Below, piece by piece: positions 6,339 through 63,363 of a DNA stretch of 64,000 nucleotides. The notes beneath the pieces were generated by a model, which ran no database searches, had not been told where the DNA came from, and saw nothing but the letters and a program-made list of their open reading frames with translations. The first letter of the stretch is position 1. Each line of letters opens with the position of its first letter. The DNA comes from Bacteroidota bacterium (GTDB taxonomy: Bacteria > Bacteroidota > Bacteroidia > Bacteroidales > FEN-979): NCBI GenBank assembly GCA_026391805.1, contig JAPLDJ010000009.1:124001-188000 (forward strand), given 5' to 3'. The translations under genes and the position numbers were made by a program.

Positions 6339-6363
6339 TTTTCTTTCTTTTCACGCCCCGGTC

Positions 6364-7416
6364 ATGATCCCTCAAAATGTGACAGCAGACGAGAATAACG
6401 AATTGTACGAACACTTCCGTTTCGTTGTCGATAAAGGCCAGGGGCTTATCCGGATCGACAAATACCTGGCTGCCAAAATTGAAAACTCCTCCCGCACGCG
6501 GATCCAGAACGCCGCCAACGCCGGCAATATCCTTGTGAACGGCACAGCGGCCAAACCCAATTACAGGGTCAAACCGGAGGATGTGATCAGCATCGTTTTG
6601 CCGCATCCTCCGCGCGATACCGAGATCTACCCTGAAAACATCCCGTTCAACATCGTTTATGAAGACCGTGATATCCTCGTGGTGAACAAAGAGGCGGGCA
6701 TGGTAGTGCATCCCGGTCACGGGAATTTTACAGGAACGCTGCAGAATGCCCTCGTTTATCATTTTCAGGAGAACCTGAAGGATGAACCCGACGCCAAAGT
6801 CTTCCTGGTCCACAGGATCGACAAGGATACCTCCGGGATCCTCCTGATCGCAAAAAATGAAATCGCCCAGAACAGGCTTGCCAAACAATTTTTTGATCAC
6901 ACCATCGACCGGAAATACATTGCACTGTTGTGGGGGAACCTGGCGGATGACGAAGGAACAATTTCGGGTTTTATTGCACGCGATTCCCGCGACCGGCTCG
7001 TCATGAAGATCTATCAGGAAGAAGAAAAAGGCCGGAGCTCGGTGACCCATTACAAGGTGATCGAACGGTTCGGCTATGTAACCCTCGTTGAGTGCGTTCT
7101 TGAGACGGGCCGTACACACCAGATCCGCGCCCATTTCAAACACATCGGCCACCCGCTGTTTAACGATGAAAAATATGGCGGCGATGAGATCCTGAAGGGG
7201 ACGACATTTACAAAATACAAGCAATTCGTCCAGAACTGCTTCAAGCTGATACCCCGCCAGGCGCTGCATGCAAAGTCGCTGGGGTTTATCCATCCCTCCA
7301 CGGGCCAGTATATCTTTTTCGACAGCGATTACCCGGATGATATGAAGGCAGTGGTTGAAAAGTGGAGGAACTATAGTGTACACAAAGGATTGGAGAGTGA
7401 AGGGGAAAATAATTAG
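6364..7416 (+). CDS. rluD: RluD-family 23S rRNA pseudouridine synthase
   Basis: Predicted to isomerise uridines in 23S rRNA (the RluD target is the helix 69 loop). An N-terminal S4 RNA-binding domain (about residues 25-90, RIDKYLAAKIENSSRTRIQN...ILVNG) is followed by the RluA-type catalytic domain with HRIDKDTSGILLIAKN, where the Asp is the catalytic residue, and GRTHQIRAHFKHIGHPLFND. Length of 350 aa is normal. The stop codon TAG forms the beginning of a TAGCGAAA repeat tract. Substrate sites cannot be assigned from sequence alone, so RluD is the family name rather than a proven specificity. Confidence 0.92.
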   Translation: MIPQNVTADENNELYEHFRFVVDKGQGLIRIDKYLAAKIENSSRTRIQNAANAGNILVNGTAAKPNYRVKPEDVISIVLPHPPRDTEIYPENIPFNIVYEDRDILVVNKEAGMVVHPGHGNFTGTLQNALVYHFQENLKDEPDAKVFLVHRIDKDTSGILLIAKNEIAQNRLAKQFFDHTIDRKYIALLWGNLADDEGTISGFIARDSRDRLVMKIYQEEEKGRSSVTHYKVIERFGYVTLVECVLETGRTHQIRAHFKHIGHPLFNDEKYGGDEILKGTTFTKYKQFVQNCFKLIPRQALHAKSLGFIHPSTGQYIFFDSDYPDDMKAVVEKWRNYSVHKGLESEGENN

Positions 7417-46800: not shown

Positions 46801-49800
46801 AATCACCACGATCGTACTTACGAGCAGCACTGCCGGCACGACCTACACCTGGACAAGGAATAATACGGTCGCAGTGACGGGTATCGCAGCCAGCGGCAGC
46901 GGCAACATCAGCGGAAACCTGACCAATACGACTACGGCTCCGGTTACAGTGACCTTTACGATCACTCCGACTGCAAACGGATGTACGGGACCGACCACAA
47001 CCGCAACGGTGCTGGTCAACCCGACACCGAACGCAGTTGCAGCACCGTCGTCACAGACAATCTGTTCGGGATCTGCGATCACCACGATCGTACTTTCAGG
47101 CAGTGTTGCAGGCACAACCTATACCTGGACCAGGGATAACACGGTTACGGTGACAGGTATCGCGGCAAGCGGCAGCGGGAACATCAGCGGTAACCTGACC
47201 AATACGACGTTTGCACCAATCACCGTGACCTTTACGATCACACCGACCGCAAACGGCTGCCCCGGACCGACCACAACGGCTACAGTATTGGTCAATCCGA
47301 CGCCAAATGCAATCGCATCGCCGTCTTCACAGACGATCTGCTCGGGAACGGCAATTACCACAATTGCACTGACAAGCAGTACAGCGGGAACAACCTACAC
47401 CTGGACGAGGGATAATACGGCTACGGTGACAGGTATTGCGGCCAGCGGAAGCGGGAATATCAGCGGTTCGCTGACCAACACTACATTCGCACCAGTTACC
47501 GTGACATTTACGATAACCCCGACGGCCAACGGTTGCGTGGGACCGACCACAACCGCAACGGTGCTTGTCAACCCGACACCGAATGCGGTCGCTACGCCAT
47601 CGTCACAGACCATCTGTTCGGGCGCTACGATCACAACGATCGCCCTGACGGGCAGTGTGGCCGGAACGACCTTCAACTGGACAAGGGACAATAACGCCAC
47701 CGTGACGGGAATCGCGGCCAGCGGAAGCGGGAACATCAGCGGGATACTGACCAACACGACCCTGGCCCCGATCCTGGTGACCTTTACGATAACTCCTGTC
47801 GCGTACGGCTGTAACGGGCCAACCATAACTGCTACCGTCCTTGTCAACCCGTCTATCGGGATCCCGGTCTTTGTCCTTGGTCCGACATCGACCCGCTGCC
47901 AGGGCATAGCAACCGTGACCTACACCGCCACGTCTGTCAACAGCACCGGCATCAGCTATACACTTGACGCTGCAAGCCTTGCAGCCGGCAACACCATCAA
48001 CGGTGCAACCGGGGCAGTGACTTATACGGCAGGATGGGTCGGCGTTTCGATGATCACCGCAATTGCAAATGGCTGTAACGGACCATCTTCCTCATACCAC
48101 CTGTCGACGACCAATCCAAGGCCCATGCCGACCATTACCGGACCTGCTTCTGTTTGTGTTGGAACTGCCGGTAATGTCTATACCACGCAGGCCGGAATGA
48201 CCGGTTATACATGGACCATCTCCGCCGGAGGTTTAATTACCGGTGGCAATGGAACCAGCAGCATCACTGTAACCTGGAATACGGCGGGGGCTCAGACCAT
48301 CAGTGTCAACTACTCCAATGGGTTCTCATGTCCAGCGCTCGTTCCGTTCATTTATAATGTAATCGTAAATCCGCTGCCGGTTCCGACAATTACAGGACCA
48401 GCAACTGCATGCATGGGTTCCACGGGTAACGTGTATACAACCCAGGCTGGCATGAGCGGCTACACATGGACGGTTTCTGCAGGCGGCATTATTGCCGGGG
48501 GAACCGGAACAAATGCGGTAACCGTGACCTGGAACACTGCAGGCGCTCAGACCATAAGTGTGACCTATACGAATGGAAACGGGTGTACCGCTGCTGCTCC
48601 GACAGTTTACAATGTTACGGTAAGTGCAGCGCCTGTTCCTACGATCACAGGGACAACCAACCTTTGCGTCAATTCGGGCTATTATAACTATACGACTGAA
48701 TCCGGAATGACTAATTATGTATGGAATGTTTCGGCCGGAGGTATCATCAACTTCGGATCGGGAACCAACCAGATCCAGATATCATGGATCGGTTCGGGAG
48801 CCCAGACGGTGAGTGTCATCTATACAAGCGCTACAGGCTGTCCTGCCGTTATCCCAGCGGTTCTGAACGTTACGGTCAACCCGCTTCCGGGCTCTGCCGG
48901 TTCAATCACCGGTACGGCTGTTGTCTGCGGAGGGACCAACGGAGTTGCCTATTCAACTCCTGTTATCTCAGGAGCTGTCACGTATATCTGGACACTGCCT
49001 GTCGGGGCTACGATTGCTACCGGTTCGGGCACGAACTCCATCACCGTGAACTATGCCGCCAATGCTTCCAGCGGGAACATCACCGTTGCCGGCAACAACA
49101 TGTGCGGCAACGGAACTGCTTCACCACCATTCCTTGTCACAGTCACCACACTGCCTGATCCTGCCGGTACCATTACCGGTCCAGCTTTAGTCTGCCAGGG
49201 TGATATGGGCAAGGTTTACACTGTGCCTGCTATTACTGGCGCCACAGGCTATGTATGGTCGTTCCCGGCAGGAGCTGCCATCGTGGGTGGTAACAATACC
49301 AACTCCGTAACGGTTGATTTTGCTCCAACCGCATCATCCGGCATCATTGTCGTTGCCGGTACGAACTCCTGCGGAAGCGGTACAGTATCGCCCAATTTCA
49401 ATCTGACGGTCAACCCGCTGCCCCCAACACCTGTTGTAACAAATACCGGGTACATCGTATCCAGCAGCGCTGCAACCGGCAACCAGTGGTACTATTCCAC
49501 GACCATCGGGGGAACGGGTGCACCCATAAGTGGAGCTACAGGACAGACTTACGACGCCACACTTACCGGTACAGGTTATTACTGGGTAGTGGTCACCGTG
49601 AACGGATGCTCCGCCGTATCGAACCGCATACTGGTTATCACAACCGGAATTGAAACACTCTCTTCCTCTGTGATTAACCTCTTCCCGGTGCCGAACGACG
49701 GACGGTTCACCGTTACTTTCTCCGGAACTTCAACCGAGATATTCACCATCAGCATATTCAATAACCTTGGTGTAAAGATCTTTGAAGAACTGAATCTGGA

Positions 49801-49918
49801 GATGAACGGGATGACCAACAAGGTGATCGACCTTCGCCCGGTACCCAACGGAGTTTATACTGTGATCTTCCATAACAGCCAGAAGCAGGTGGTGAAGAAG
49901 ATCGTTGTAAACAAATAG
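31856..49918 (+). CDS. Gene D: giant T9SS surface protein (6020 aa)
   Basis: Signal peptide MKKIYFLFLTLIFSYSALGQ is followed by a jelly-roll (choice-of-anchor-J-like) domain with FTQNFEGSW at residues 20-195 and a fibronectin III module (about 198-285). Long beta-rich regions follow, then a beta-helix region similar to gene C (about 1544-2025). One YGLNLSYG fibronectin-like module precedes about fifteen PKD-like ITGP modules (about 2130-3440). A glycine-rich domain lies at about 3527-3718. Twelve 92-residue ATPSSQTICSG modules lie at 3995-4178 (2 copies) and 4411-5330 (10 copies), split by a jelly-roll-like domain. More PKD-like modules and the shared T9SS domain (from about 5940, ending KKIVVNK) finish it. 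Predicted surface adhesin or gliding/matrix fibre. The frame is intact for 18 kb. Confidence 0.9.
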   Translation: MKKIYFLFLTLIFSYSALGQTIFTQNFEGSWTIPSSLSPSWSGTTTPADNQWQRCDYTTGWTSSTGAYSPLGANSTSYSARFHTYDAASGTSGDFITPTIDLSAYSAGTVKLNFYHINTTGTDVLNIYSSSDNGATWSSALAPSPIGVSAAWTLKTITLPGNSATTKIKFTATGDYGTTDIGIDEIKVYFPVAANGVPITFTATSVTQTGMTIGWTDNSTNETAFRVYRSTDNITFVKVGSDVTSTTMATIGTTYSQVQSGLVPGTTYYYRITAVADIESAPLTGSWATVAGGNILSTGTGGLWSQTSTWVGGVVPVFTDNVTIVNGATVTIDITTATCWNLTVGQGTSGILIYLAGTASTLTVNGGVTVAAGGSFNAGSGALTTHILYIGGSTNTAPGTGSIINNGIFDMYTTAGVTVTFFGSPDASISGTGATLDFYRVVLNKGATTATATVTPPILDLQRAYTVTGVATTALLYTFTAGVLKISGSFTQSNLVFQPAGYTIPALGGFWLNNSTFTVTGQNGSPTLAGLLRVSAGTYNIGTALGNSMGFSTGSVVNIEGGTINGASRFGVSAAANTITYSQSGGTITVCTVANTSTTLCSFDLGTSVSSTINISNGTIIIQNVATGATVRDYRNQAGTGIAGLTGGTLQIGNASTPAAKSFTIYGVTPNLVINGTFAHTVTWGAPVNYNNCSLNITISATTTLNIGNNIFLFAGTTLTDNGIFIGTGASSRLYFYGAVPLAMQTFTGTGVVTAPLTSFDVDNSFGVNVTSTNNVPVTRIILFTGGVTGSGKLTLGNGAATTGTIQIGNTTTPTNAGVFDAPLTFNLGTGGEVISYLRTGSSRTTGNEVTPTRALTSMTFDDNDVTHTLTIAGGNLSAGTLNLTNGIIISSAANLLTVSGTATTSIVGGSTAAYVNGPLARTLPASLLTGSTYPLPVGKGTYNPLELVNPTTNAGGTVVIKAEAFDANCSGTAGLNMGALNSNRYWGASITSGGANFTNTFIRLNDASVVSSSAIAASATSNGTYDIVGGTSPTIVVGTSVLSAAPAATSMPGFYVIGTKSVSMTYISSTTTQANTNAVAQGTTNAEVMGIQVVTSGNASPLSVTSFTVNANGTTNVSDITNAKIYYTGTSSTFATTTQFGSTVASPTVSNYSITGSQVLAEGTNYFWITYDVPSTATLNNYIDAECTSLTVGFPQTPTLTNPSGNRQILNQSVIGSGVATATWPVYRYYNYSTWECIYLQSELGTVKDITSIAFNKSSGADIVAITPVTVYMKHTSATILTTGKYDLTGYTQVFTGTFQNTATSGWMEMVLNTAFSYNGTDNLQILIVRGYQAYTSSYPYYYSTTAATNRARQGYSDTEQPGITGGTIDLTASTNVPNLRYNFALPVPKSLSGITYNQASTSAVILGSLNKEILRLDFAVAGSTGTLSLNSIVVSSNNTSDADISNVKLFRTSSPVFSTANQLGTSQTFSGGTATFSSLNYDLPGFSTTYIWVAYDISGTATVNNLADARITANSINVAGSTYPVADQSPAGSRTIRGPLNGPYDVGTGKVYPKIIDAIADLALLGVSGPVIFNLTDATYPSETFPIIINAYTGASATNTVTIKPASGVNASISGASASSLIKFNGASYLTIDGSNNGTSSQNLTLTNTTASGTTAVVWIGSNGTGAGTNYITVKNCNLANGFNIGTSYGIFAGASSGLGTAGNDNDNLTLQNNNINTSYYGIWAQATSAAGQMDNLQMIGNSIGSATSANYIGYSGINIAYASGALISQNTIFNIITSVNWTPVGMTIGSGVVSSTISRNNINNVTWSTAGGYGGRGLYVNTGNAASNLTIANNLLYVISGDGFTGFSNSSPVGMYFDGTTGGLNIYHNSVYMSGNLSYTSATLTAAILFYTATITNINLRNNIFQNSMVNSVTSGSKSYVIFSATAPANFTQIDNNDYFDGGSQAVLGFLPLYSDITTLAAWQAATGKDVYSANVNPNFVSTTDLHTAKPRLNNGGVSIPAVTVDYTGATRTNPPDIGAYEYTLAMTGINTLSATAVGQTTATVNGNIDSNGEVAAMSFDYGLNLSYGSSGAGTPSPVRSLSSTAVSSALTLLTPNTLYHYRIKGTSTTSAEVKTGNDLTFTTLPSPTITGPATVCQGSTGNVYTTESGMTNYQWTVSAGGSITLGGGTGDYTVTVTWTGTGAQTVSVNYSNVTGPAPSPTVYNITSNPLPVPALGGPVTRCQGTTGNVYTTDPGMSNYIWTVSAGGSITSGGGTGDISATVTWTSSGSQSISVNYTDGNGCTAASPTVTTVTVNALPVPVINGTSPVCYTESWQTYTTAAGMTNYTWTATGGSIVDGGGTTDNYVSVSWPSTGTYPVTVSYTDINGCTAAAPTTFYVTLNDHPVPTISGPASVCIGSASNVYTTESGMTNYLWTVSAGGSVTLGGGTGDNTVTVTWGSAGPQTVSVNYTDGNGCTAVSPTDYSVFVHPLPNLSITGPTPVCAGSTGNTYNAIIMTKPNYIGPTGTFVWTISSGGVITGGGTTSDNYVTVTWNTAGAETVTLLYTDGNGCTAASPTIYNVTVNTLPVPTISGSTIVCEGSYGYTYTTESGMTNYVWTVSSGGTISAGGTSTDYTADIDWLTPGAESVTVNYTDANGCTASSPAIKNVTVNPRSVPSLSGPGAACAGSTGYVYTTDALQSNYTWFISSGGSIASGGGTGDYTVTVTWNSAGNQSVGINYQNTVGCWAYGSTSLPVIVTPNPVPTITGPSTVCANSAGNVYSTPNIVGHTYAWAISGGTITGGDGTNSITVTWNAAGSGWVQVTETITATGCAVTTAQYNVTIYALPVPTITGSGSICGLAITQYHYVTEANMSNYTWTVSAGGNINVGQSTNDITVSWFTAGAQTVTVTYSNYCNAAAPTSKIVNVYALPVPSIAGPSSVCAGSTVHTYSANVTYSPVSPTFTYYWTVSPGGSITGGGNTYDNYVMVTWNTAGARTVSLSVTDAYGCSSASPAVYPVTVNPLPVPTITGPASICGIPSAGNHYVTESGKSGYTWTVSSGGSITAGSTTNDITVTWSTSGAKTVTVNYADGNGCGAATPTSYAVNVYDLPVPTITGAGTICGIPSSGNHYITEPLMSGYSWTVSAGGSITAGSTTNDITVTWSTTGPKTVTVTYTDGNGCNPAAPTSKTVNVYALPVPSFLGGPTALCGIPNNGNIYTTDPGMSNYSWTVSAGGSIFSGSGTNSITVNWSTTGAKTVTVTYTDTHGCNPAIPTSLTTNVYDLPVPTITGPATAILGSTGNLYTTEAGKTNYLWSVSAGGTPTSGGGTTDNTVTVTWNSAGSQTVSVSYKDGNGCTAASPTIFNVSVSSVPGPAGSITGVTPVCQGQIGVAYSVAPILNATGYFWTLPSGATVATGGNTNSITVDYSMSAVSGNITVYGTNIFGNGTTSPPFAVTVNPTPTVDPVSNQVVCTGTSTAPVTFTGSMPGAIYNWVNNAPAIGLAASGTGNIGAFTASSAGASPLVATVTVTPVSSGMTTQTFSYTGGMQTWTVPAGVTSITIETYGASGSNGTNNPGGANGGPGGKGSKATGTLGGINSNPTGGPGGDGDGNGTNGANSLDGGGGFAGIGQIGGLKGIGCSYASGLPGSNGITLSGGAGGAGSLCCTGTAPPGGGGGGGYFGGGGGGGGSAGTVGCTGSGTGGGGGGAGGTSYLAGVTGGALSTGIQTGDGLIKISYGSPGSCTGTPVSFTITANPNATISLTSAPGTNIQSLCINTPITNITYSIGGGGTGAGVVGLPTGVNGVYAAGVFTISGTPTVSGTFNYTVTTTGTCVQATATGTITVNILPVPTITGPTMSCTGLASTYTTEGGMSGYLWTVSAGGSILSGQGTSFISVLWSTAGAQTVSVNYATGFGCFASSPTVLNVTVNPRPAPTISGPTPVCINSSGNTYTTEAGKIYYVWSYSPGGTVTGGGTVNDNFVTVTWNFAGAQVVQVNYENAFGCSAFFPTIYPVVVNPLPIATATPSSQTICSGSSITSIVLSSSVGGTTYTWTRDNSATVTGIAASGSGNISGSLTNTTFNPITVTFTITPTANGCAGPTTTATVLVNPTPNAIATPSSQTICSGSAITSIVLTSSTTGTTYAWTRDNTATVTGIAASGSGNISGSLTNTTTSPVTVTFTITPTANGCPGTPTTATVMVNPIPDVNPVSNQVVCNGTATAPVTFSGSIPGTTFNWTNSTPSIGLAASGAGNIASFTATNGGTSPVVANVTVTPSITTPLTFTYNGSLVAGDATLSNRLNRNGIVPTCASPKLYPGPFGSGLYYYDTYTFTNTTGSSQCISVTYIAPSGGDVFVSAYNGSFNPANLSTNYLTDGGNSSLGLPVTFSFNVANGATIVLVANVADVPICPAYTITVTGLAVTCTGSPISFNYTVNPSPNAVATPSSQTICSGSAITTIALSGSVAGTTYNWTRDNTVSVTGIAASGSGNISGSLTNTTFAPITVTFTITPTANGCSGTPVTATVLVNPTPNAIATPSSQTICSGSAITTIALTSSTAGTTYTWTRDNTATVTGIAASGSGNISGTLTNTTTAPVTVTFTITPTANGCTGPTTTATVLVNPTPNALATPSSQTICSGATITTIVLTSSTTGTTYTWTRNNTATVTGIAASGSGNISGSLTNTTFAPITVTFTITPTANGCAGPTTTATVLVNPTPNAIATPSSQTICSASAITTIVLTSSTTGTTYTWTRDNTVTVTGIAASGSGNISGSLTNTTFAPITVTFTITPTANGCPGPTTTAMVLVNPTPNAIATPSSQTICSGTAITTIALTSSTVGTTFTWTRDNTVSVTGIAASGSGNISGNLTNTTFAPITVTFTITPTASGCVGPTTTATVLVNPTPNATATPSSQTICSGSAITTIALSGSVTGTTYTWTRDNTVSVTGIAASGSGNISGSLTNTTFAPITVTFTITPAANGCNGPTTTATVLVNPTPNAIATPSSQTICSGSAITTIVLTSSTAGTTYTWTRNNTVAVTGIAASGSGNISGNLTNTTTAPVTVTFTITPTANGCTGPTTTATVLVNPTPNAVAAPSSQTICSGSAITTIVLSGSVAGTTYTWTRDNTVTVTGIAASGSGNISGNLTNTTFAPITVTFTITPTANGCPGPTTTATVLVNPTPNAIASPSSQTICSGTAITTIALTSSTAGTTYTWTRDNTATVTGIAASGSGNISGSLTNTTFAPVTVTFTITPTANGCVGPTTTATVLVNPTPNAVATPSSQTICSGATITTIALTGSVAGTTFNWTRDNNATVTGIAASGSGNISGILTNTTLAPILVTFTITPVAYGCNGPTITATVLVNPSIGIPVFVLGPTSTRCQGIATVTYTATSVNSTGISYTLDAASLAAGNTINGATGAVTYTAGWVGVSMITAIANGCNGPSSSYHLSTTNPRPMPTITGPASVCVGTAGNVYTTQAGMTGYTWTISAGGLITGGNGTSSITVTWNTAGAQTISVNYSNGFSCPALVPFIYNVIVNPLPVPTITGPATACMGSTGNVYTTQAGMSGYTWTVSAGGIIAGGTGTNAVTVTWNTAGAQTISVTYTNGNGCTAAAPTVYNVTVSAAPVPTITGTTNLCVNSGYYNYTTESGMTNYVWNVSAGGIINFGSGTNQIQISWIGSGAQTVSVIYTSATGCPAVIPAVLNVTVNPLPGSAGSITGTAVVCGGTNGVAYSTPVISGAVTYIWTLPVGATIATGSGTNSITVNYAANASSGNITVAGNNMCGNGTASPPFLVTVTTLPDPAGTITGPALVCQGDMGKVYTVPAITGATGYVWSFPAGAAIVGGNNTNSVTVDFAPTASSGIIVVAGTNSCGSGTVSPNFNLTVNPLPPTPVVTNTGYIVSSSAATGNQWYYSTTIGGTGAPISGATGQTYDATLTGTGYYWVVVTVNGCSAVSNRILVITTGIETLSSSVINLFPVPNDGRFTVTFSGTSTEIFTISIFNNLGVKIFEELNLEMNGMTNKVIDLRPVPNGVYTVIFHNSQKQVVKKIVVNK
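42435..43012 (+). other. Glycine-rich domain within gene D
   Basis: The segment starts TWTVPAGVTSITIETYGASG and has runs such as GGGGGGGYFGGGGGGGG and ends GTSYLAG...GLIKISYG. The order resembles the glycine-rich fold of ALK/LTK receptors and their bacterial relatives. At DNA level it is a GGC/GGT-rich island within an otherwise AC-rich gene. Confidence 0.7.
43838..44389 (+). repeat. Two tandem 276-bp modules in gene D
   Basis: Two copies of a 92-codon PKD-like unit (NPxPxAxATPSSQTICSGS ... TATVxV), each exactly 276 bp. They are separated from the larger array of the same unit by two other domains. Confidence 0.9.
45086..47845 (+). repeat. Ten tandem 276-bp modules in gene D
   Basis: 2760 bp is exactly ten copies with no insertion or deletion. 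Each reads NPTPNAxATPSSQTICSG ... YTWTRDNTxxVTGIAASG ... GPTTTATVLV with only scattered substitutions. Two alternating subtypes are visible: TSST-G versus SGSV-G after the first strand, and TTFAPI versus TTTAPV in the middle. This suggests recombination between copies. Confidence 0.93.
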
Positions 49919-50072: not shown

Positions 50073-50233
50073 TTATTAGGAAGAATAAGCCCCGGAGGAA
50101 AGTTCATCATCATCCACTGCTGCCTGAATCAAGCATACCAGAAATGCATGTTATCATTCAGCTTTCTCACCGGCGGGAATGGGTTGCAAGGTTTTTGCTT
50201 TCAGAAAAAAACAAAAAAGAAAATATAACTGCT

Positions 50234-53200
50234 ATGAAAAGATTTACACTTCTGACGATTTTTATCGGAATTTTTATTTCACTGGGATTTTATAACACCA
50301 GCAAAGGACAATTACTGCTGGATGAGAATTTTTCCTATACTGCCGGCGACCTGCTTACGGCCCATGGCTGGTATGCACATTCCGGTGGCGGGACCCAGGC
50401 CATCACCGTCAACACAACCGGACTTACCTTCCCGGGCTACATTGACTCAGGGATTGGCAACGCGGCGCTGGTCGACAACAACGGTGAAGATGATAATTAC
50501 GGCTTCACAGCGGTATCTTCCGGTGTGGTCTATACAGCCTTCATGGTAAATGTGACAGGTGTTGCTGCCGGATATTTCTTTCACCTGATGCCAACCCAGA
50601 CCTCAACGACCTTCCGTGGAAAAGTTTTCATGGATGCAACCAACCATTTCGGAGTGAGTGTGGGAAGCAATACCGGTACGATGGCTACGACAACGTTTTC
50701 AACCGGTACAACGTATCTCATGGTTCTGAAATATGAGATTGTCGCAGGAACCACCAATGACATCGTAAGTCTTTTCATTTTCGACACTTCGATTCCTCCA
50801 ACAGAACCGGGGACACCGACGATCGGACCGTTGACCGACGCCACCCAGGCCGACATCAGTCCTGCCAATGTTGCACTGCGCCAGTTTAATGCCTCGCAAA
50901 ACATATTGGTTGATGGTATCCGCATTGGCATGTCATGGGCAGACCTGTTTCCTGCATCCGCTCCAACTGTTCAGGCCAGTAACATCAACTTCACCGGAAT
51001 CTCAACAACCGGCATGACGGTAAACTGGACCAATGGCGACGGCGCAAAGCGGATTGTAAAAATGAACACGACCAATAGCTTTACCAACCCGGTCGACGGC
51101 ACAGATCCTTCTGCAAATGCCGTTTATGGCGGATCAGGCGAACAGGTGGTCTATAATAACAACGGAAATTCTATTGCAATAACAGGACTTACCCCCAGTA
51201 CCACATACTGGTACAGGGTTTATGAATACAACGGCACAGGCACCAGCACAAAATACCTAACCACCACGGCTACCAACAACCCGAACAGCCAAGCGACAAA
51301 CTCAGCTGCTGTTGCACCGACCATCACTACTCCTACAGTTACAACCATTACAAATACAACGGCAGTTCTTGGCGGGACGATTACATCAAACGGCGGATCA
51401 GCCATCACGGAACGCGGTACCGTTTGGAAAACCTCAGCAGGAGTAACGATCACCGACAACAAACTGGCTGAAGGCGGAACTACTGTTGCTCCATTCTCCC
51501 ATACCCGGTCTGCATTACCTGCAAAGACTCACATTTATTATAAGGCTTATGCCACAAATATCATTGGAACCAGTCTAACTGGTGAAGACTCTTTTTTCAC
51601 CCTTGCCAATGAACCAACTTCACATGTAACCGGGTTCACGGCAATACCGGGAGGAACAACGAGCATCATCCTGAACTGGACCACTCCCTCAACCGGCGCC
51701 GACGGATACCTCATTCTCCAGAAGAACGGAGCAACACCTCCGACCGGCACACCTGTTGACGCGAACGGATATATTGTCGGAAATGTGATCGGGGACGGAA
51801 CCGTTGTTGCCCTCGTCGCACCGGGGACCACGCTCACTACCACCATCACCGGCTTATCGCCTGCCACACAGTATTCCTATACACTGGTTCCCTATGCCTG
51901 GGATGGTGTAAACAGCCCGACCTACAATTATTACACGGCACCTGTGATCCCGAGTGCAAGCGCAACGACCACCGGGACGACACCTGTCATCTACACATGG
52001 CAGGGCGCCAATAACGGTTTATGGACTACCATGACCAACTGGAATCCCACCCGGTTTGTGGTTGCATCAAATGATATTCTGCAGTTCAACGACGGGACAA
52101 CCAAAAATATAACGGCCGTTCCCACTGAAACGATAGGTCAGATGATCATGTCCAACAATACCGTCATCAACCTGCAAAGCAGTGCTGCAAGTGTATTGAC
52201 GATCAGCGGTCTTGCAGGAACCGACTTTATCATCCCGGCAGGATGCGCAATGAACATGAATACCACCAATGCAATAACAATTGCAGTTGCAACATCAGCC
52301 ACCGCCAGCATCAGCGGCAGCATGACATTCTCCTCCACTGTCAATACAGCACACCGCCTGACAGGTGCTGATGCGGGTTCGATCGTTTTCAACAGCGGCT
52401 CCGTTTTCACGGCAGGAACCTTTTTCCTCGGAAATGCATTCGGTACAGGTACTGCAAACTCAGTCACATTCTCCAGTGGATCGACTTATGTTCACCAGGC
52501 TGGCAGCAACCCGTTCGTCAACAATCCGCCAACCAACATCGTTACTTTCCAGACAGGCAGCCTTTATAAGCTTATCAGCAACTCCACCCCGTCCTTTTCA
52601 GGCAAGACCTATGCTAACTTCGAAATGGACGCAACCGGTCAAACGGTGACAGTGACAGGCGCAGCCGCCGTTACTTTGGATAACCTGACCATCACCAACG
52701 GAACCTTCAATTTCAACATGACGGCTACACCCGGCCATTCCATCAAGGGGAACATCGCTGTTGCAGCCGGCGGCATATTGAATTTTTCGCCGGCATCTTC
52801 AGGAACTGTTGCCCTCAATGGTACAGCCCTCCAGTCGATTTCAGGCCCGGGACCCATTACGACGGGTGCTAATTCCATTCTTGAGATCAACAATTCCAAT
52901 GGAATTACACTAAACAACTTGCTTACTGTCAACGGTTCATTGAAGCTTACAAACGGTCTGTTCACCCTTGGTTCAGCCAACCTTTTCCTCGGGACGACCG
53001 GCACCACTTCCGGTACGCCTTCGGCTACCAGCATGATCGTAGCAACCGGAACGGGACTCTTGCAGAAGAGCTTTGCCTCAGGATTCACAGGGAGTTTCCT
53101 CTTCCCGGTGGGAGATAACATCTTATCGGCGGAATATTCACCGCTAACGCTGAATTTCATCAGCGGAACCTTCGCTGCAGGAAATTATGCAGCGGTCAAT

Positions 53201-55306
53201 CTTGTCAATGCAAAATATCCCACCGACCCGAATTTCGTAAGTTACCTTAAACGCTACTGGAATATCTCCTCAAGCGGCATTACCGCGTTCAATTACGGAG
53301 CAACATTCCAGTATACAGTTGCAGACGTAACCGGTACCGAAAGCCAGATTTCGACAGTCCAGGTAATCCCGACACCATACATCACTTATGACCTGGCAAA
53401 CAGTGCGCTACACCAGCTCACCGCAAGTGGACTTACTTCTTTCGGAACCTTTACGGGATCACAAATGAAACCGACAGTTGTTACCACTGCAGCGACTGCG
53501 GTTGGTGCAAACACCGCCACCCTCAACGGTACCATTAAAGCCAATAACCTCAGCACAGCCACTGGTTTCGAATATGGATTGACCACTACCTACGGCAACA
53601 ATGTCTCGGCCTTGCCCGCTACGGTAACCGGCAACACTGTCACGAGCGTGTCACTTGCAATTTCAGGACTCACAATGAACACAACCTATCATTTCAGGGT
53701 GGTTGGCACAAGTGTTCCGGGAACCTCAACCGGTGCAGACATGGTATTCACCACAACCTGTCCGATCCCCTCTGCTGCAGGAACAATTACCGGCCCGACC
53801 AGTGTCTGCTGTCCGGGAACCGGGTATGTCTATACCGTTCCTGTAATTGCAAACGCGATCAACTATAACTGGACCTTGCCGGCCGGTGCAATTCTTACAT
53901 CGGGGGCCAATACCAATTCAATCACTGTCAGCTTCCCTGCCGGTTCTGTATCAGGTAACGTTTCTGTATTCGGTTCAAGCATATGCGGAAACGGCACGGT
54001 ATCGCCAAACCTGGCCGTTACGGTCAACCTGCTGCCGGTTCCTACCATTACAGGCTCCGCCAGTGTTTGCATCAATTCCGGATACTACACTTATACCACG
54101 GAAGCAAACATGAGTAGTTATACCTGGGCGATTTCATCAGGCGGACTCATTAATTTCGGATCAGGAACGAACCAGATCACTGTTTCCTGGATCACGGCAG
54201 GCGCCCAGACTGTAAGTGTAACCTATCACTCTGCGGCAGGCTGTGCTGCAGCAGCACCGACTGTAAAGAACGTCACCGTTAATCCGCTTCCCGGACCGGC
54301 CGGAACCATCACGGGGATTCCCAGCGTTTGTGCAGGTCAGAGCGGTGTTCATTATTCAACCACAGTAATTGCCAATACGACAACCTATGTCTGGACACTA
54401 CCTGCAGGAGCAACAATCTCCTCAGGTTCAGGGACCAGCTCCATTACCGTCAATTTTGGCACGACTGCCGTTTCAGGGAATATTACCGTCCAGGGAAATA
54501 ATGCCTGCGGCAATGGAACGGTATCACCGCCTTATGCTGTCATCGTTATTCCGTTGCCGGTTACACCGGGAAGCATCATGGGGACCAGCACCGTTTGTGA
54601 GGGGGATGCGGCCATATCCTACCATATCCTGCCGATTACCAATGCCACGGGCTATGTCTGGTCTGTACCTCCGGGAGCCGTCATTGTTGAAGGGATAAAC
54701 ACCCGGTCGATCAAGGTCAATTTCCCGACCGGATCTACTTCAGGCAATGTCAATGTTTACGGTACCGATTTCTGCGGAGACGGACCTTTATCACCGGATT
54801 TTCCGGTGACTGTCAACCCCCAGCCGCCTGCCCCGGTAATCTCGGCTTCAGGGAATACCCTGACAAGCAGCACCCCGGCCGGTAACCAATGGTATTTCAA
54901 TGGCAATCCGATCCCGGGAGCAGTTTACCAGACTTACGTCGCCACACAGTCGGGCAACTACACCTGCAACGTGTCCCTGCTCGGATGCACCGGCCCGTTC
55001 TCAAATACGCTGAACGTCGTCATCACAGGAATCGCGGACAAAAACAATCCAACCAGCATCACTGTTTTCCCAAACCCGAACGAAGGACAATTCACCCTGT
55101 CGATCATCGGCACTCCTGAAGAAAAAGAATATGACGTCACGGTCATGAACAACCTTGGCGTGACCATATTCCAGGAAAAAGGAATGAAGGTGAAAGACCA
55201 GTTCCGCAGGGAGATCGACCTCCGCCCCGCACCGAACGGGATTTATACTGTGATTGTCAGGAACGATAATACGTCGGTGGTGAGGAAGATTGTTATTAAC
55301 AAATAG
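50234..55306 (+). CDS. Gene E: T9SS modular surface protein
   Basis: I start at the ATG at 50234 because it opens a clean signal peptide (MKRFTLLTIFIGIFISLGFYN); the frame is open 90 bases further upstream, but that stretch is basic and polar with no signal-peptide core. About 1690 residues. A lectin-like (LamG-type) domain (about residues 28-235, LLLDENFSYTAGDLL) is followed by fibronectin III modules, a long repetitive beta-rich region with TVNGSLKLTNGLF and LLQKSFASGFTGSFLFPVG, one YGLTTTYG fibronectin-like module, five or so PKD-like modules and the T9SS domain (ITVFPNPNEGQF ... VRKIVINK). The sorting domain is more diverged than those of A to D. Surface binding role inferred. Confidence 0.87.
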   Translation: MKRFTLLTIFIGIFISLGFYNTSKGQLLLDENFSYTAGDLLTAHGWYAHSGGGTQAITVNTTGLTFPGYIDSGIGNAALVDNNGEDDNYGFTAVSSGVVYTAFMVNVTGVAAGYFFHLMPTQTSTTFRGKVFMDATNHFGVSVGSNTGTMATTTFSTGTTYLMVLKYEIVAGTTNDIVSLFIFDTSIPPTEPGTPTIGPLTDATQADISPANVALRQFNASQNILVDGIRIGMSWADLFPASAPTVQASNINFTGISTTGMTVNWTNGDGAKRIVKMNTTNSFTNPVDGTDPSANAVYGGSGEQVVYNNNGNSIAITGLTPSTTYWYRVYEYNGTGTSTKYLTTTATNNPNSQATNSAAVAPTITTPTVTTITNTTAVLGGTITSNGGSAITERGTVWKTSAGVTITDNKLAEGGTTVAPFSHTRSALPAKTHIYYKAYATNIIGTSLTGEDSFFTLANEPTSHVTGFTAIPGGTTSIILNWTTPSTGADGYLILQKNGATPPTGTPVDANGYIVGNVIGDGTVVALVAPGTTLTTTITGLSPATQYSYTLVPYAWDGVNSPTYNYYTAPVIPSASATTTGTTPVIYTWQGANNGLWTTMTNWNPTRFVVASNDILQFNDGTTKNITAVPTETIGQMIMSNNTVINLQSSAASVLTISGLAGTDFIIPAGCAMNMNTTNAITIAVATSATASISGSMTFSSTVNTAHRLTGADAGSIVFNSGSVFTAGTFFLGNAFGTGTANSVTFSSGSTYVHQAGSNPFVNNPPTNIVTFQTGSLYKLISNSTPSFSGKTYANFEMDATGQTVTVTGAAAVTLDNLTITNGTFNFNMTATPGHSIKGNIAVAAGGILNFSPASSGTVALNGTALQSISGPGPITTGANSILEINNSNGITLNNLLTVNGSLKLTNGLFTLGSANLFLGTTGTTSGTPSATSMIVATGTGLLQKSFASGFTGSFLFPVGDNILSAEYSPLTLNFISGTFAAGNYAAVNLVNAKYPTDPNFVSYLKRYWNISSSGITAFNYGATFQYTVADVTGTESQISTVQVIPTPYITYDLANSALHQLTASGLTSFGTFTGSQMKPTVVTTAATAVGANTATLNGTIKANNLSTATGFEYGLTTTYGNNVSALPATVTGNTVTSVSLAISGLTMNTTYHFRVVGTSVPGTSTGADMVFTTTCPIPSAAGTITGPTSVCCPGTGYVYTVPVIANAINYNWTLPAGAILTSGANTNSITVSFPAGSVSGNVSVFGSSICGNGTVSPNLAVTVNLLPVPTITGSASVCINSGYYTYTTEANMSSYTWAISSGGLINFGSGTNQITVSWITAGAQTVSVTYHSAAGCAAAAPTVKNVTVNPLPGPAGTITGIPSVCAGQSGVHYSTTVIANTTTYVWTLPAGATISSGSGTSSITVNFGTTAVSGNITVQGNNACGNGTVSPPYAVIVIPLPVTPGSIMGTSTVCEGDAAISYHILPITNATGYVWSVPPGAVIVEGINTRSIKVNFPTGSTSGNVNVYGTDFCGDGPLSPDFPVTVNPQPPAPVISASGNTLTSSTPAGNQWYFNGNPIPGAVYQTYVATQSGNYTCNVSLLGCTGPFSNTLNVVITGIADKNNPTSITVFPNPNEGQFTLSIIGTPEEKEYDVTVMNNLGVTIFQEKGMKVKDQFRREIDLRPAPNGIYTVIVRNDNTSVVRKIVINK

Positions 55307-58330: not shown

Positions 58331-59716
58331 TTACTTCCGGAATTGCCGGATAAAGGTCTCCACCTCCGGAACTCCTCCCTGGTAGATCAGGTATCCGTTG
58401 TAGGGTTCGCGGTTGGTGATCTCCCCGTTGATCGGTGTCAGCATGATCTCCTTGACCTTTTCAAGGTCTGTGGTCTGCCCCAGCGCCCAGCTCAGCTTGA
58501 TGAAAGCCGTTTCGGGAAGCATGTTTTCCGCAGGTACGACGCCCTTGGCCATCAGGTCGCGGCCGGTATCGTATACGAACATGTGCACAAAGCCCCACAG
58601 CGTTTGAACTGTCATGTAGATGGCAACGCCTTTCTTCACGGCACGCTCGATGGCCGGGTAGAGCGGTTTGTTCACATGGCCGAGCCCGGTTCCGATGATG
58701 ATGATCCCCTTGTAGCCGTTGTCGACCAGCGAATCGATCATGTCGGGATGCATGTTGGTGTAGTAGTAGATCATGGCCACCCGTTCCTCGTAATAGGGCA
58801 TGATGGTCACCTTCCGGTCCTTCCGGCGAAGGTTGTAATCATGCTTGATCGGGAAAACACCGGCGCGGGTTACAGTTGCCAGTGGTGTGTCGCCGATGGT
58901 CCGGAAAGTGGAACGGTAGGATGAATGCATTTTACGTACGCGGGTTCCCCTGTGCAGGAAACCGTATTCATCGGAGGTAGGTCCGAACATGCAGATCATC
59001 ACTTCGGCGATGTCGCCATGGCCCGCGGCGGTTGCTGCGTGCATCAGGTTGAGTGCGGCGTCTGAACTCGGACGGTCGGATGAGCGCTGCGAGCCCACCA
59101 GCACGATCGGGATCGGTGAATTCTGAACCATGAAGGTCAGCGCGGCAGAGGTATAATGCATGGTATCCGTTCCATGGCCGATGATGATCCCGTCAGTGCC
59201 TTTTTCGATCTCCTTGCCGATGGCAACCGCCAGTTTTTTGTACTGTTCCGGACCCATGTTCTCACTGAAGACCGCAAAGAGCTTTTCGGTGGTGAGGTTG
59301 CAGATGTCGGCCAGTTCGGGAACGGCACCATAAAGCTCACCCGGGGAGAAGGCCGGGATCACCGCACCGGTCCGGTAATCGAGACGGGAGGCAATGGTTC
59401 CTCCTGTGCCGAGTAGTTTCACACTCGGTTTCCCTTCCGAGTAAGGAAATTCCTTTTCCGGGATCTTGTAAACGGCTTTCTTGTAGCCCAGTTCGGTGAT
59501 GTTCGTGATGGATCCGATGTCAACACCGATGTTGTACCCGGTAAAGAATTTCAGCACCAGGTGCTTGTCATCCGTATTCTCGGCACGTGGGAGGATGGTC
59601 CCCTCAAAGACGCCGCGGGTGGAATCCACCCTGACCTTCGCCCAGACACGTGCATTGAATTTCATCATTACTTCGAGTGCCCGTCCTTTATAGCCTTGGA
59701 AAATATCTTCGTTCAT
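58331..59716 (-). CDS. gatD: Glu-tRNA(Gln) amidotransferase subunit D (archaeal-type)
   Basis: GatD is the glutaminase/asparaginase-like subunit of GatDE, which releases ammonia for conversion of Glu-tRNA(Gln) to Gln-tRNA(Gln). The N-terminal about 90 residues (YKGRALEVMMKFNARVWAKV...) form the small beta-barrel found in GatD but not in L-asparaginases. The amidohydrolase part has KLLGTGGTIASR (first catalytic Thr), GHGTDTMHYTSAALTFM (Thr-Asp pair) and RGTRVRKMHSSYRSTFRT with the catalytic Lys. 461 aa fits GatD rather than bacterial AnsA/AnsB (about 330-350). gatE lies 30 bases upstream on the same strand, supporting the assignment. Confidence 0.92.
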   Translation of the reverse strand: MNEDIFQGYKGRALEVMMKFNARVWAKVRVDSTRGVFEGTILPRAENTDDKHLVLKFFTGYNIGVDIGSITNITELGYKKAVYKIPEKEFPYSEGKPSVKLLGTGGTIASRLDYRTGAVIPAFSPGELYGAVPELADICNLTTEKLFAVFSENMGPEQYKKLAVAIGKEIEKGTDGIIIGHGTDTMHYTSAALTFMVQNSPIPIVLVGSQRSSDRPSSDAALNLMHAATAAGHGDIAEVMICMFGPTSDEYGFLHRGTRVRKMHSSYRSTFRTIGDTPLATVTRAGVFPIKHDYNLRRKDRKVTIMPYYEERVAMIYYYTNMHPDMIDSLVDNGYKGIIIIGTGLGHVNKPLYPAIERAVKKGVAIYMTVQTLWGFVHMFVYDTGRDLMAKGVVPAENMLPETAFIKLSWALGQTTDLEKVKEIMLTPINGEITNREPYNGYLIYQGGVPEVETFIRQFRK

Positions 59717-59746
59717 TGTTCAGTTTTCATTTAATCGTGGAAGGGT

Positions 59747-61714
59747 TCAGAGTTGTATCAGTTTGCTCAGTTCTGCAAGCGGGACATTGCCAATCGCCGA
59801 ACCGCTCAGGTAGCCCATGATCCAGTTTACGCCTGCAGCATCGTCGGTTGACGTCCGGATCTGCTTGTATTTGCTGACAAGAAAAGGCACTTTCCTGATG
59901 ATCTCTTCCTTCGGGATCTCTTTGAAACCGATGGTGATCAGGATCGACTCGAACTCCATTTTTGGATACAGGTAGAGGTGTCTCAGCATCCGTTTTGCAA
60001 GGGCAAGGTCCAGGTTACGTTCCGTAAGGTACTTTATCATTCTGACCACCTTGTTGTAGGAAAATTCCGGTAATCGAGGATATTTCCCTTCGATATTCTT
60101 CAGCCAGTGTGCAAACAGGATGGCTGTGAAACGGGGCGGCACGTTGCATTTTTCCTGCAACTGTTCGATCACTGGCACAAGGTTGTTTTTCAGGATGTAA
60201 GTGAAGGTGTCTTCGGGAACGTTCCATTCCATCAGCTGGCTGATCCGTTCGGATACCAGCACCGGAAGCCGTTCTGAGATTTCCATTATCTGTGAATCTT
60301 CCAGGGGGATCGGTGCCGAATCGGTATCGGGATACATGCGGTCTGCGCCGGGAAGAACACGTTCAAAGATCGTGGTTCCGTCGTCAAACGATTTCCTTGT
60401 TTCGTTTGGCACGCCACGGAAGGCCATCAGGCACCTTTCCTCGATCGTATCCAGCGCGGTCGGAATATCTTCTTCAGGTCCCCAGATGATCAGCTGGGCA
60501 TCGTTTTCCTCACTTCCGAGAAGGGATTGTATTTTTTTCCAGTTCTTTTTCCCGACTTGTTCTTCAAGCATCTCGCTGTGCGCCATGTTGGGGAAACCGA
60601 TGCAGGCAACCACCATCAGCCGTTCCGAAATTTCGTCCGCAAACATCTTTCCGGGCTGGGTGAAATGCGACAGGATCCCCCCGTACTGTGGCAGGTTGAC
60701 TATCATCATCTTATAATGCTGAAGCCTTCCTTCCTGGAGCAAGGGTATTTCAAACGGGATTTCCCTGGGGGAAATCTCAAGGTGTGATATGCTCCATTCC
60801 GGGACATCCTTTACCCTCTCCTTCAGCTTCTCGCGGATGTTCAGCAACGCCCATTGACGAAATGCTTCGTTGTGGGTCAGCTCGGGCATCCAGCTCGTAT
60901 GTGCAACGCCCTTGATCTCCACACGCGTGCCTCCCCTGCAGCTTACGTTCACGTCGGCCCGGGTGGAGCCGATGCCGGTGCGGACCTTGCCGGTGCTGCG
61001 GTTCAGGAAGCGGATATAATCGGCACCTTCTTTTACTTCGCCGGGATTTTTAAATTCGGGATAGGTCACGGTTTCGATGAGCGGCATCCCGAGGCGGTCG
61101 GTGCGGTAAACACGCACATGGCCGATGTCGGAAACCTCGCGGCAGGCATCCTCTTCAATGCTGAGCTGGATCAGCCTTACCTTCTTGTTTCTGAGCTGGA
61201 TCTCCCCTTCCACGCCGATGATCGCGGTACGCTGAAAACCGGTCGGGATAGAGCCGTCGAGGTATTGTTTCCGGGTGATGTGCACCTCTCCGACGACCTT
61301 AAGCTTCGAAAGCAGGGAAACCTCCAGGGCGATCTCCAGCGCTTCACGGTTTAAAGGGAACGGCGGGGTGTCGTCCACATCATAGGTACACGCAGTCCGG
61401 TTGTTGATCTGGTAGATGATCTGCTTCCTTGTTTTGAATTCCATCAGCGCCGTGCCGTCGTATTCACCAAGTTCGCTGAGCGTGGGCCGCATGTGGCGGA
61501 TCAGCTCCGCGTCATATTCGTCGGGCTTCTGGTAGAAGCCGGCCGGGCAGTGGCAGAAAAGTTTCTCTTTGGTCTTCAGTTGCTGATGAACTTCAAGTCC
61601 CGACATGAACCCGATGCGGTCATAATCGGCCTGGGTGGCTTTTTTGCGAGGCACGTATCCTATGTCCTTCTGCGTTCTTGCATAGTTGCGCCTGGGATCA
61701 AATGCTTGCTTCAT
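59747..61714 (-). CDS. gatE: Glu-tRNA(Gln) amidotransferase subunit E (archaeal-type)
   Basis: GatE binds tRNA(Gln), activates its glutamyl group with ATP and transfers ammonia supplied by GatD. Diagnostic parts are FMSGLEVHQQLKTKEKLFCHC, EFKTRKQIIYQINNRTACTYDVDDTPPFP, SIPTGFQRT, LIQLSIEEDACRE, GSTRADVNVSCRGGTRVEIKG, and an inserted aspartyl-tRNA-synthetase-like (GAD) domain near residues 350-450. DTDSAPIP follows, then a C-terminal helical YqeY/tail domain. At 655 aa it is longer than GatB (about 475), as GatE should be. I chose the ATG at 61714 (MKQAFDPRRNYART). The frame is open to 61933, but that stretch would overlap the divergent OstA-like gene. Confidence 0.93.
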   Translation of the reverse strand: MKQAFDPRRNYARTQKDIGYVPRKKATQADYDRIGFMSGLEVHQQLKTKEKLFCHCPAGFYQKPDEYDAELIRHMRPTLSELGEYDGTALMEFKTRKQIIYQINNRTACTYDVDDTPPFPLNREALEIALEVSLLSKLKVVGEVHITRKQYLDGSIPTGFQRTAIIGVEGEIQLRNKKVRLIQLSIEEDACREVSDIGHVRVYRTDRLGMPLIETVTYPEFKNPGEVKEGADYIRFLNRSTGKVRTGIGSTRADVNVSCRGGTRVEIKGVAHTSWMPELTHNEAFRQWALLNIREKLKERVKDVPEWSISHLEISPREIPFEIPLLQEGRLQHYKMMIVNLPQYGGILSHFTQPGKMFADEISERLMVVACIGFPNMAHSEMLEEQVGKKNWKKIQSLLGSEENDAQLIIWGPEEDIPTALDTIEERCLMAFRGVPNETRKSFDDGTTIFERVLPGADRMYPDTDSAPIPLEDSQIMEISERLPVLVSERISQLMEWNVPEDTFTYILKNNLVPVIEQLQEKCNVPPRFTAILFAHWLKNIEGKYPRLPEFSYNKVVRMIKYLTERNLDLALAKRMLRHLYLYPKMEFESILITIGFKEIPKEEIIRKVPFLVSKYKQIRTSTDDAAGVNWIMGYLSGSAIGNVPLAELSKLIQL

Positions 61715-61851: not shown

Positions 61852-63363
61852 ATGCGCTGGAAACGGAAATATACAATAGCCCTGGCAACCTTCTTTCTGC
61901 TGCCACTGATCTCCTTTTCCCAGGAAACCACAAAGATCCTGCTGCAGAATGCCGATTCGCTGGTCCACAGCCAGGTGGTGCGCCCGGAGTTCCAGCGCCT
62001 GAAAGGGAATGTGGTGCTCAGCCACGACAGCACGACACTCTATTGCGACAGCGCCTTCCTGAATGACAGCAAGAATTTCGTCCTCGCATACGGCAACGTC
62101 CACATCCAGGTAAGCGACACGCTCAACCTTTTCGGGGATTCGCTCAATTACGATGGGAACACCCGCATTGCCAAAGTCTGGAGCAACGTGAAGCTGATCG
62201 ACAACGAAACCACGCTGACCACAGATACCCTCTCCTTCGACCGGACCACCGAAATCGCCAGTTACGAATACTGGGGAAAGATCGTCAACGGTAAAAACAT
62301 TTTGGTCAGCAAGCATGGATATTATCACACACAGACCAAGGAATTTTTCTTCAGGGAGAAAGTTATCCTGATCAATCCTGAGTATACAATGCATTCCGAC
62401 ACCATGTTGTACAATACCGTTACGGAAGTAGCCTATTTCTTCGGACCCTCCAACATTAAGGGAAAGGAAGATTCGATCTACTGCGAGAACGGCTGGTACA
62501 ACACACGCACCGACATTGCCCGTTTCCGGAAGAACGGCTGGATCTATCACCAGGAACAGATCCTCACCGGCGACAGCCTCTATTATGAGCGGGAGAGCGG
62601 TTTCGGGCAGGCCTTTAAACATGCCTTCCTCTATGATACCGTTCAGAAAACAACGCTCAGTGGCAATTACGGTGAACTGCAGCGAAAAAAGGGGTATGCC
62701 TTCATGACCGACAGCTCCATGGTTCAGATGGTCGACAAGAAAGACACCCTTTTCCTTCATTCCGATACGGTTTGGGCAACCTTCGACACGTCACAGAACA
62801 TCAAGGCCATACGTGCATACTATAAAGTCAAGTTCTTCCGCCGCGACCTGCAGGGGAAATGTGATTCGATGGCATACCACGGCAGCGATTCCACCATGGT
62901 CCTCTACCATGATCCTGTGTTGTGGTCGGAAGCCAACCAGCTGACAGCCGATTCCATTAAGCTAACCATGCTCAACAGCCAGATCGACTCGATGGTATTG
63001 TACAACACCGCCTTCATCATCTCCAAAGACGACACCAATAAATTCAACCAGGTGAAAGGCCGCGACATGGTGGGTTTTTTCAGGAACAATGATCTTTACA
63101 AGATCAAGGTGCTCGGGAACTCAGAAACAGTCTATTTTGCGCGGGAGGAGGACCGCACCCTGATCGGCATCACCAGGGTCTATTCAAGCGACATGCTGAT
63201 CTTTGTCGAGAACAAACAGATTGTCACCATCACCTACATTGATGAACCAAAAGCCGTCACCTACCCGGAAAAGGAGGTTTCACCCTATGACCTGAAGCTG
63301 AAAGGATTTAAATGGGTTGAAGATAAGCGACCCAGAACCAGGTACGATATTTTCAAATGGTAA
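61852..63363 (+). CDS. OstA/LptA-like outer-membrane lipid transport protein
   Basis: 503 residues with signal peptide MRWKRKYTIALATFFLLPLISFSQ. The rest is a long series of OstA-type beta strands: VVLSHDSTTLYCDSAFLND, YGNVHIQVSDTLNLFGDSL, AKVWSNVKLIDNETTLTTD. The recurrent motif of a substrate layer, then D-T-L/S-x-Y-x-x, resembles the beta-jellyroll of LptA, which carries LPS across the periplasm. In Bacteroidota, proteins of this size annotated OstA-like take the LptA role or a related one. hldD elsewhere in the window also serves LPS. Divergent from gatE (137 bases) and convergent with the MCE gene. Exact role inferred. Confidence 0.8.
   Translation: MRWKRKYTIALATFFLLPLISFSQETTKILLQNADSLVHSQVVRPEFQRLKGNVVLSHDSTTLYCDSAFLNDSKNFVLAYGNVHIQVSDTLNLFGDSLNYDGNTRIAKVWSNVKLIDNETTLTTDTLSFDRTTEIASYEYWGKIVNGKNILVSKHGYYHTQTKEFFFREKVILINPEYTMHSDTMLYNTVTEVAYFFGPSNIKGKEDSIYCENGWYNTRTDIARFRKNGWIYHQEQILTGDSLYYERESGFGQAFKHAFLYDTVQKTTLSGNYGELQRKKGYAFMTDSSMVQMVDKKDTLFLHSDTVWATFDTSQNIKAIRAYYKVKFFRRDLQGKCDSMAYHGSDSTMVLYHDPVLWSEANQLTADSIKLTMLNSQIDSMVLYNTAFIISKDDTNKFNQVKGRDMVGFFRNNDLYKIKVLGNSETVYFAREEDRTLIGITRVYSSDMLIFVENKQIVTITYIDEPKAVTYPEKEVSPYDLKLKGFKWVEDKRPRTRYDIFKW

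Follow-up and report, generated by a model that had tools for sequence, protein, structure and literature searches.

What is a two-gene amidotransferase of the archaeal type doing in a bacterium that can already charge its glutamine tRNA directly? The locus that raises this question lies in a 64,000-nucleotide stretch of DNA (the window; positions 124,001–188,000 of contig JAPLDJ010000009.1, assembly GCA_026391805.1) from a member of the Bacteroidales with a genome of 3.89 Mb in 28 contigs (98.3% complete, 0.27% contamination). On the minus strand, gatE (59747–61714), predicted to encode the 655-residue Glu-tRNA amidotransferase subunit E, is followed after 30 bases (59717–59746, from the gatE stop to the gatD ATG) by gatD (58331–59716), predicted to encode the 461-residue asparaginase-type, ammonia-releasing subunit. 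Both frames run uninterrupted from ATG to stop, in the arrangement that a sequence-only reading of the window had described. That reading attributed the pair to transfer from archaea and took it to imply an indirect, tRNA-dependent route to Gln-tRNA. The identification held; the two explanations attached to it were not supported as stated. We give roughly even odds to the view that the operon encodes a working GatDE, inherited within the order, that would offer an additional or salvage path to Gln-tRNA(Gln).

Both proteins were recognized by curated family models. GatE clearly passed TIGR00134 (403.3 bits, cut-off 319.55) and passed NF003107 with a margin of just 0.1 bit (456.1 bits, cut-off 456). 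It matched Pfam GatB_N, the kinase core of GatB and GatE, with 158.9 bits. All GatB models fell far under their cut-offs (best 122.6 vs 338), and these scores, together with a separate branch in the tree described below, ruled out a misread GatB. GatD scored 504.3 bits against NF003217 (cut-off 310) and 502.5 against TIGR02153 (cut-off 324), contained both Pfam asparaginase domains, and matched GatD_N (PF18195) at residues 25–74 (59495–59644, minus strand; 44.0 bits, cut-off 25.7). It also passed TIGR00519 (373, cut-off 260.5), but the GatD models outscored TIGR00519, which, with GatD_N and the adjacent gatE, ruled out a stand-alone type I asparaginase. GatD residues T107, T183, D184 and K262, to which we assign the catalytic role, align with T101, T177, D178 and K254 of Methanothermobacter thermautotrophicus and were invariant in 13/13 aligned GatD sequences. 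The N-terminal domain and asparaginase triad noted earlier were both borne out. In GatE, E41, H43, E187, E188 and E214, which we assign to the kinase site, were identical in 15/15 aligned sequences.

The predicted fold of GatE agreed with this assignment. Its AlphaFold model (mean predicted local distance difference test score 81.2, 19 sequences; weak at residues 76–95, 151–159 and 439–463) aligned best with archaeal GatE 2d6f_D (Z score 30.2, root-mean-square deviation 5.9, 499 residues), next with 1zq1_C (Z 27.1), and then with GatB, which shares the core fold (Z 24.3 and below). Residues ~304–440 of the model (60395–60805, minus strand) matched AspRS insert domains with Z 8.9–11.2, which supports the GAD-type insert that the size of GatE had suggested. 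Helices in the model spanned residues 473–654; a C-terminal helical or tail domain (residues ~487–655; 59750–60256, minus strand) showed a modest resemblance to the N-terminus of human GlnRS (Z 8.5), and the last ~58 residues a modest one to YqeY (8xjg; Z 6.7 over 52 residues). Among solved structures, the pair came closest to the GatE and GatD chains from M. thermautotrophicus (2D6F) and Pyrococcus abyssi (1ZQ1), with identities over the aligned parts of 34% and 30% for GatE and 46% and 48% for GatD, respectively. The window pair shares with these archaeal enzymes the two subunits, the catalytic residues, the GatE core with its AspRS-like insert and tail, and the GatD N-terminal domain; it differs in residing in a bacterial host with GlnRS and a U1-A72 tRNA(Gln).

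Both genes are evidently maintained. Between the window genome and another of the same genus (G591), gatE differed by 22/13/63% at codon positions 1/2/3, and gatD by 10/5/58%; third positions have changed far more than second positions, which indicates purifying selection on both. Of 106 loci with a readable gatE, 94 had gatD on the same strand within the next two genes, or 95 with the L093 copy found by tblastn. No other gene was widely conserved nearby, as every family other than gatD occurred in at most 12/106 loci. Mce-like and NUDIX-like neighbors, named by eye, were among those recurring in no more than 12 loci, as was an OstA-like family found upstream of gatE in 12/106 loci, the window included (one gene upstream in ten, two genes in two). 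In a genome of the same family (G493, locus L161) the neighbor of gatDE was again OstA-like, with 63% identity to that of the window over 303 residues, so the window operon is no chance joint; a different gene lay upstream of gatDE in the same-genus genome G591.

We evaluated how widely GatDE occurs with two genome draws and a set of named genomes. The parts of the reviews available to us describe GatDE as archaeal only, and ideas on the origin of both amidotransferases lean on that restriction (PMC9499178, PMC8007984). The sequence-only reading likewise called GatDE textbook archaeal. The rarity in bacteria that this implied failed: GatE was carried by 107 of the 247 genomes that we drew from the order, including the sole other member of the genus and the sole other member of the family in the draw. 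An even draw of the phylum (395 genomes, with just five others of the window's order) gave 30 genomes with GatE over cut-off, of which the window genome was the only one in its class. gatD was whole in 27 of these 30 loci and cut at the locus end behind another open reading frame in two (L040, L051); the remaining locus (L048) stops with its contig. Other-class GatE-bearing genomes mostly matched the GatE model more than once (26/29, with the extra match read in G287 only), and the extra matches are probably GatB, as in archaea. In the other three (G116, G294, G357), GatE was the sole match to that model.

Among named genomes, we considered the best 80 of at least 564 matches, so that counts by phylum are not a survey. 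GatE identity to the window was 55–68% in these 80 loci, gatD mostly lay behind gatE, and the best matches were titled Bacteroidales or Bacteroidetes metagenome-assembled genomes (MAGs). Cultured isolates were represented by Marinifilum flexuosum DSM 21950, two Labilibaculum and Perlabentimonas gracilis, and other MAG titles included Aminicenantes, Cloacimonadota, Zixibacteria, Planctomycetota, Saprospiraceae, Chlorobiota and Archangium. Misbinning may account for L124 and L140, where a Bacteroidales-type GatE sits on a short contig in MAGs bearing the titles Archangium sp. and Planctomycetota. A Bacteroidales-type GatDE in a genome outside the window's class (L062, G156) may reflect either transfer or a misplaced contig. 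No GatE was found in viral contigs.

Phylogenetics placed the window proteins within these bacterial families. In a quick tree of 62 GatE rows, in which archaeal branches were long and the deep order stayed unsettled, GatE was separated from the GatB outgroup (support 100, starred), in agreement with the first identification. Three rows formed an archaeal clade (98, starred), 27 rows from other classes of the phylum formed a second (97, starred), and 31 rows formed a third (100, starred) that joined Bacteroidales, including the window, with Cloacimonadota, Zixibacteria, Aminicenantes and others. The window GatE grouped with L064 and with the rows of its own genus and family (100, starred). A quick GatD tree of 50 bacterial and two archaeal rows, with the same long archaeal branches and unsettled deep order, parted all bacterial rows from the archaeal ones (100, starred), placed the window GatD with its genus and family (99, starred), and recovered the window's larger group (25 rows, support 83, unstarred); other-class rows formed no single clade. 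One row stood by itself in the GatE tree on a long branch. This bacterial GatE (L060, G357) was highly divergent, with 34% identity to the window, as distant as the archaeal sequences; gatD was adjacent to it, and that GatD joined other-class bacteria on a long branch. The only additional archaeal GatE found, from Natrinema, was cut at 449 residues and had a long branch.

Curated models, residues, trees and carriers in the same genus and family together substantiate a true GatDE on a Bacteroidota chromosome. Recent archaeal transfer as the explanation of an oddity was not supported: the distribution of GatDE in the order is wide and vertical-looking, MAGs titled with other phyla also carry it, and the GatE and GatD nearest to those of the window come from its genus and family. 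Presence in 107/247 order genomes, with cultured isolates besides, excludes recent acquisition from archaea. On the sequences compared, bacterial GatDE stands deep apart from the few archaeal ones sampled (three GatE and two GatD), and an ancient transfer between domains or an older origin of the bacterial system are both possible.

Whether the operon is needed depends on what else charges glutamine and asparagine tRNAs in the genome. The window genome had two class-1c synthetases. One was a full-length GlnRS (TIGR00440, 762.9 bits, cut-off 425.8) that by eye kept the HIGH and KMSKS-like motifs we take as marks of the enzyme; GlnRS had been proposed as a thing to search for, and its presence means that a missing GlnRS is no reason for GatDE here. 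The other was a single bacterial GluRS (TIGR00464, 469.5, cut-off 289.95). It retained the Arg aligned with R358 of Thermus thermophilus GluRS, which we take to be a mark of discriminating enzymes, and the earlier inference of a GluRS able to charge tRNA(Gln) is not supported. There was one each of AspRS (bacterial), LysRS and AsnRS, and neither a second GluRS, which had also been suggested, nor a second AspRS was seen. The proposed search for gatCAB came back empty: no GatA-family amidase was detected (no PF01425 match at E 0.001, with 12/14 control genomes positive), and the sole GatB_N match in the genome was the gatE of the pair. AsnA was present (280.2 bits, G000:C6:88785-89531). With GlnRS, AsnRS and AsnA all encoded, this genome has no need of an amidotransferase for either Gln-tRNA or Asn-tRNA.

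Both tRNA(Gln) genes of the window genome had U1-A72 and A73, and the archaeal-type A1-U72 was not found in them; the CTG gene lay beside glnS and the TTG gene elsewhere. The tRNA(Asn) had U1-A72 and G73. RF00005 gave 38 matches in the genome, one of them partial and uncalled by ARAGORN. tRNA-Glu, tRNA-Ile, tRNA-Ala(TGC), tRNA-Pro(TGG) and tRNA-Ser(GCT) were not among the 38, probably owing to gaps at unassembled rRNA operons.

The same picture held across the order, for which we crossed the GatE and GlnRS presence tables of the 247 genomes by hand. GlnRS was over cut-off in 98/107 GatE-bearing genomes and 124/140 of the others (p 0.53), so the indirect route that had been read from GatDE is not needed in these genomes either. 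Nine GatE-bearing genomes (78–99% complete) had no over-cut-off GlnRS: G593 had a fragment, and the other eight had weak matches (best E 8.9e-16) that we took for GluRS. Eight of the nine have a genus or family mate with both genes (G571 is the ninth), which makes draft gaps a simpler cause than loss. At least 8/107 GatE-bearing order genomes had GatB-like matches. With the tRNA(Gln) TTG gene of the window genome as query, we obtained matches in 49 of the 60 order genomes compared below and read the gene in 29, with one partial match of 30 loci excluded.

In GatDE chemistry, GatD takes ammonia from glutamine or asparagine and the activation carried out by GatE is ATP-driven. By our preferred reading, GatD of the window would free ammonia from either amino acid, as its conserved residues suggest, while GatE would use ATP to phosphorylate a misacylated tRNA at its side-chain carboxylate and admit the ammonia, converting Glu-tRNA(Gln) to Gln-tRNA(Gln). 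Such a route may clear Glu-tRNA(Gln) produced by the single GluRS or sustain Gln-tRNA when free glutamine is scarce; we propose a second or salvage role because GlnRS is present. GatDE would have to accept a U1-A72 tRNA(Gln) rather than A1-U72. Archaeal GatDE, from hosts lacking GlnRS, reads A1:U72 and the D-loop of tRNA(Gln), according to the accessible part of one review (PMC9499178), so the tRNA would be read otherwise here if tRNA(Gln) is the substrate. One genome (G433, locus L152, G433:C78:19500-27500) ties GatDE to glutamine charging: glnS (1201–2907), gatE (3008–5005) and gatD (5005–6390) are arranged in tandem on the same strand, with a 100-base gap between glnS and gatE and a 1-base overlap between gatE and gatD.

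Several observations weigh against a salvage route to Gln-tRNA. GlnRS is no rarer in GatE-bearing genomes, which gives no indication of a need for the route. No source of Glu-tRNA(Gln) is evident, given one GluRS with the R358-equivalent Arg and none extra in the genome. The tRNA(Gln) genes read had U1-A72 and A73 in 14/14 GatE-bearing and 15/15 GatE-lacking genomes, without difference. The glnS-gatE-gatD run was found in G433 only. Eleven loci had no gatD found; in six of these the sequence ends within 701 bases of gatE, and the other five (L087, L102, L106, L139, L140) showed none within their 1.7–5.0 kb downstream, the rest of those genomes not having been searched. Either gatD lies elsewhere in these five, or GatE acts without GatD there. 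Finally, a comparison of 60 hand-chosen order genomes (95–100% complete, 30 with and 30 without GatE) pointed to asparagine, as AsnA was present in 4/30 GatE-bearing and 22/30 GatE-lacking genomes (p 5e-6).

This last pattern is the foremost argument for the main rival reading, which we hold to be possible though unlikely: that GatDE uses, or also uses, Asp-tRNA(Asn) for tRNA-dependent asparagine synthesis, replacing asparagine synthetase. AsnB (TIGR01536 over cut-off) was likewise rarer with GatE (11/30 vs 20/30, p 0.04), as was either enzyme (13/30 vs 25/30, p 0.003), with the limit that AsnB-like matches of 600–670 residues may or may not be genuine asparagine synthetases. We also count in its favor the U1-A72 pair in the tRNA(Asn) of the window genome. 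However, the window genome itself has AsnA and AsnRS. Its AsnA, at 280 bits against at least 314 for the best copy in the other 25 AsnA-bearing genomes, is divergent and was perhaps acquired separately. In a scan of 46 genomes, in which bands were set by score and names tested in the window genome only, AsnRS-band matches occurred in 29/30 GatE-bearing genomes (one in pieces; none in G511). AspRS anticodon domains did not differ by eye between 17 GatE-bearing and 14 GatE-lacking genomes, and no sign was seen among them of Pseudomonas-type residues, which mark a non-discriminating AspRS. A tree of AspRS from these 31 genomes contained 2 starred, and 5 in all, independent pairs. With so few pairs, the AsnA link, though strong as a raw count, is indistinguishable from relatedness, which alone can yield such a pattern.

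Bdellovibrio, Deinococcus and Thermus offer a precedent: they carry GatCAB as well as GlnRS and AsnRS and use it, or are proposed to use it, for Asn synthesis, and that of Bdellovibrio is thought to make Asn, in the portion of the survey available (PMC4206432). These bacteria resemble the window genome in having an amidotransferase not required for charging, but the window genome differs in its GatDE, its AsnA and the lack of a second or evidently non-discriminating AspRS. Against the asparagine reading, the archaeal GatDE product is Gln-tRNA, as far as the accessible review text goes (PMC9499178). A stronger form of that reading would have Bacteroidales GatDE repurposed to make Asn on tRNA(Asn), or both amides, alongside complete GlnRS and AsnRS. 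GatDE would then take the place of asparagine synthetase in many species and read U1-A72 instead of A1-U72; we consider this somewhat less probable still.

A substrate outside both routes, whether a small molecule or some other misacylated tRNA, would leave the system a GatDE in mechanism only. We judge this as improbable as the asparagine reading. With GlnRS and AsnRS present, neither of the known amidotransferase products is required, the tRNA(Gln) lacks A1-U72, and long stems separate bacterial GatE and GatD from their archaeal counterparts, all of which would fit a changed substrate. Yet both subunits match their families at the equivalog level and keep the kinase and amidase residues, the insert and the tail, and the one widely conserved partner beside gatE is gatD.

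That the indirect route is the main one, with GlnRS weak or specialized (for example, to one tRNA(Gln) isoacceptor), seems very unlikely to us. The two tRNA(Gln) genes, only one of them next to glnS, and the 9/107 GatE-bearing genomes lacking an over-cut-off GlnRS would be in keeping with it, but GlnRS is full length with a high score and the motifs noted above, both tRNA(Gln) carry U1-A72 and A73, and the exceptions are more simply draft-genome gaps. Assembly chimerism or archaeal contamination was refuted by the 300 kb contig with Bacteroidota-like genes on both sides of the pair, its recurrence in same-genus and same-family genomes, GatE across the order and in cultured isolates, and the tree placement, and no evidence for either was found.

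Compared with GatDE of other Bacteroidota and of genomes titled as a few other phyla, to which NCBIfam NF003217 and NF003107 would give the same names, the window pair shows no difference of principle and is one member of the group. Bacterial GatCAB shares the kinase core (GatB_N) with it, but here GatB models fail, GatA was not found and the branch is separate. What was already known is the family itself, whose NCBI models the window proteins pass. What is new is that GatDE is common in a bacterial order that also has GlnRS, contrary to the reviews in the parts available to us. A 2014 survey, likewise available in part, knew of no bacterium with both routes to Gln-tRNA(Gln) (PMC4206432), and we found no description of common bacterial GatDE beside GlnRS in the open-licence literature. 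The finding makes the role of a seemingly unneeded amidotransferase testable in cultured strains, and it likewise makes testable whether GatDE predates the archaeal line or reached bacteria at an early stage.

The surroundings of the operon are Bacteroidota-like, as had been stated: one flank has proteins with Por-secretion tails, the other an OstA-like gene. The latter (61852–63363, plus strand; PF13100, 195.5 bits) is a divergent LptA-type gene outside the operon. Toward the other side lies a single open reading frame of 6020 residues (31856–49918, plus strand) with PKD_5/PKD_6 repeats and a type IX secretion sorting tail at its C-terminus, flanked by further PKD proteins with type IX sorting tails at 26038–31494 and 50144–55306.

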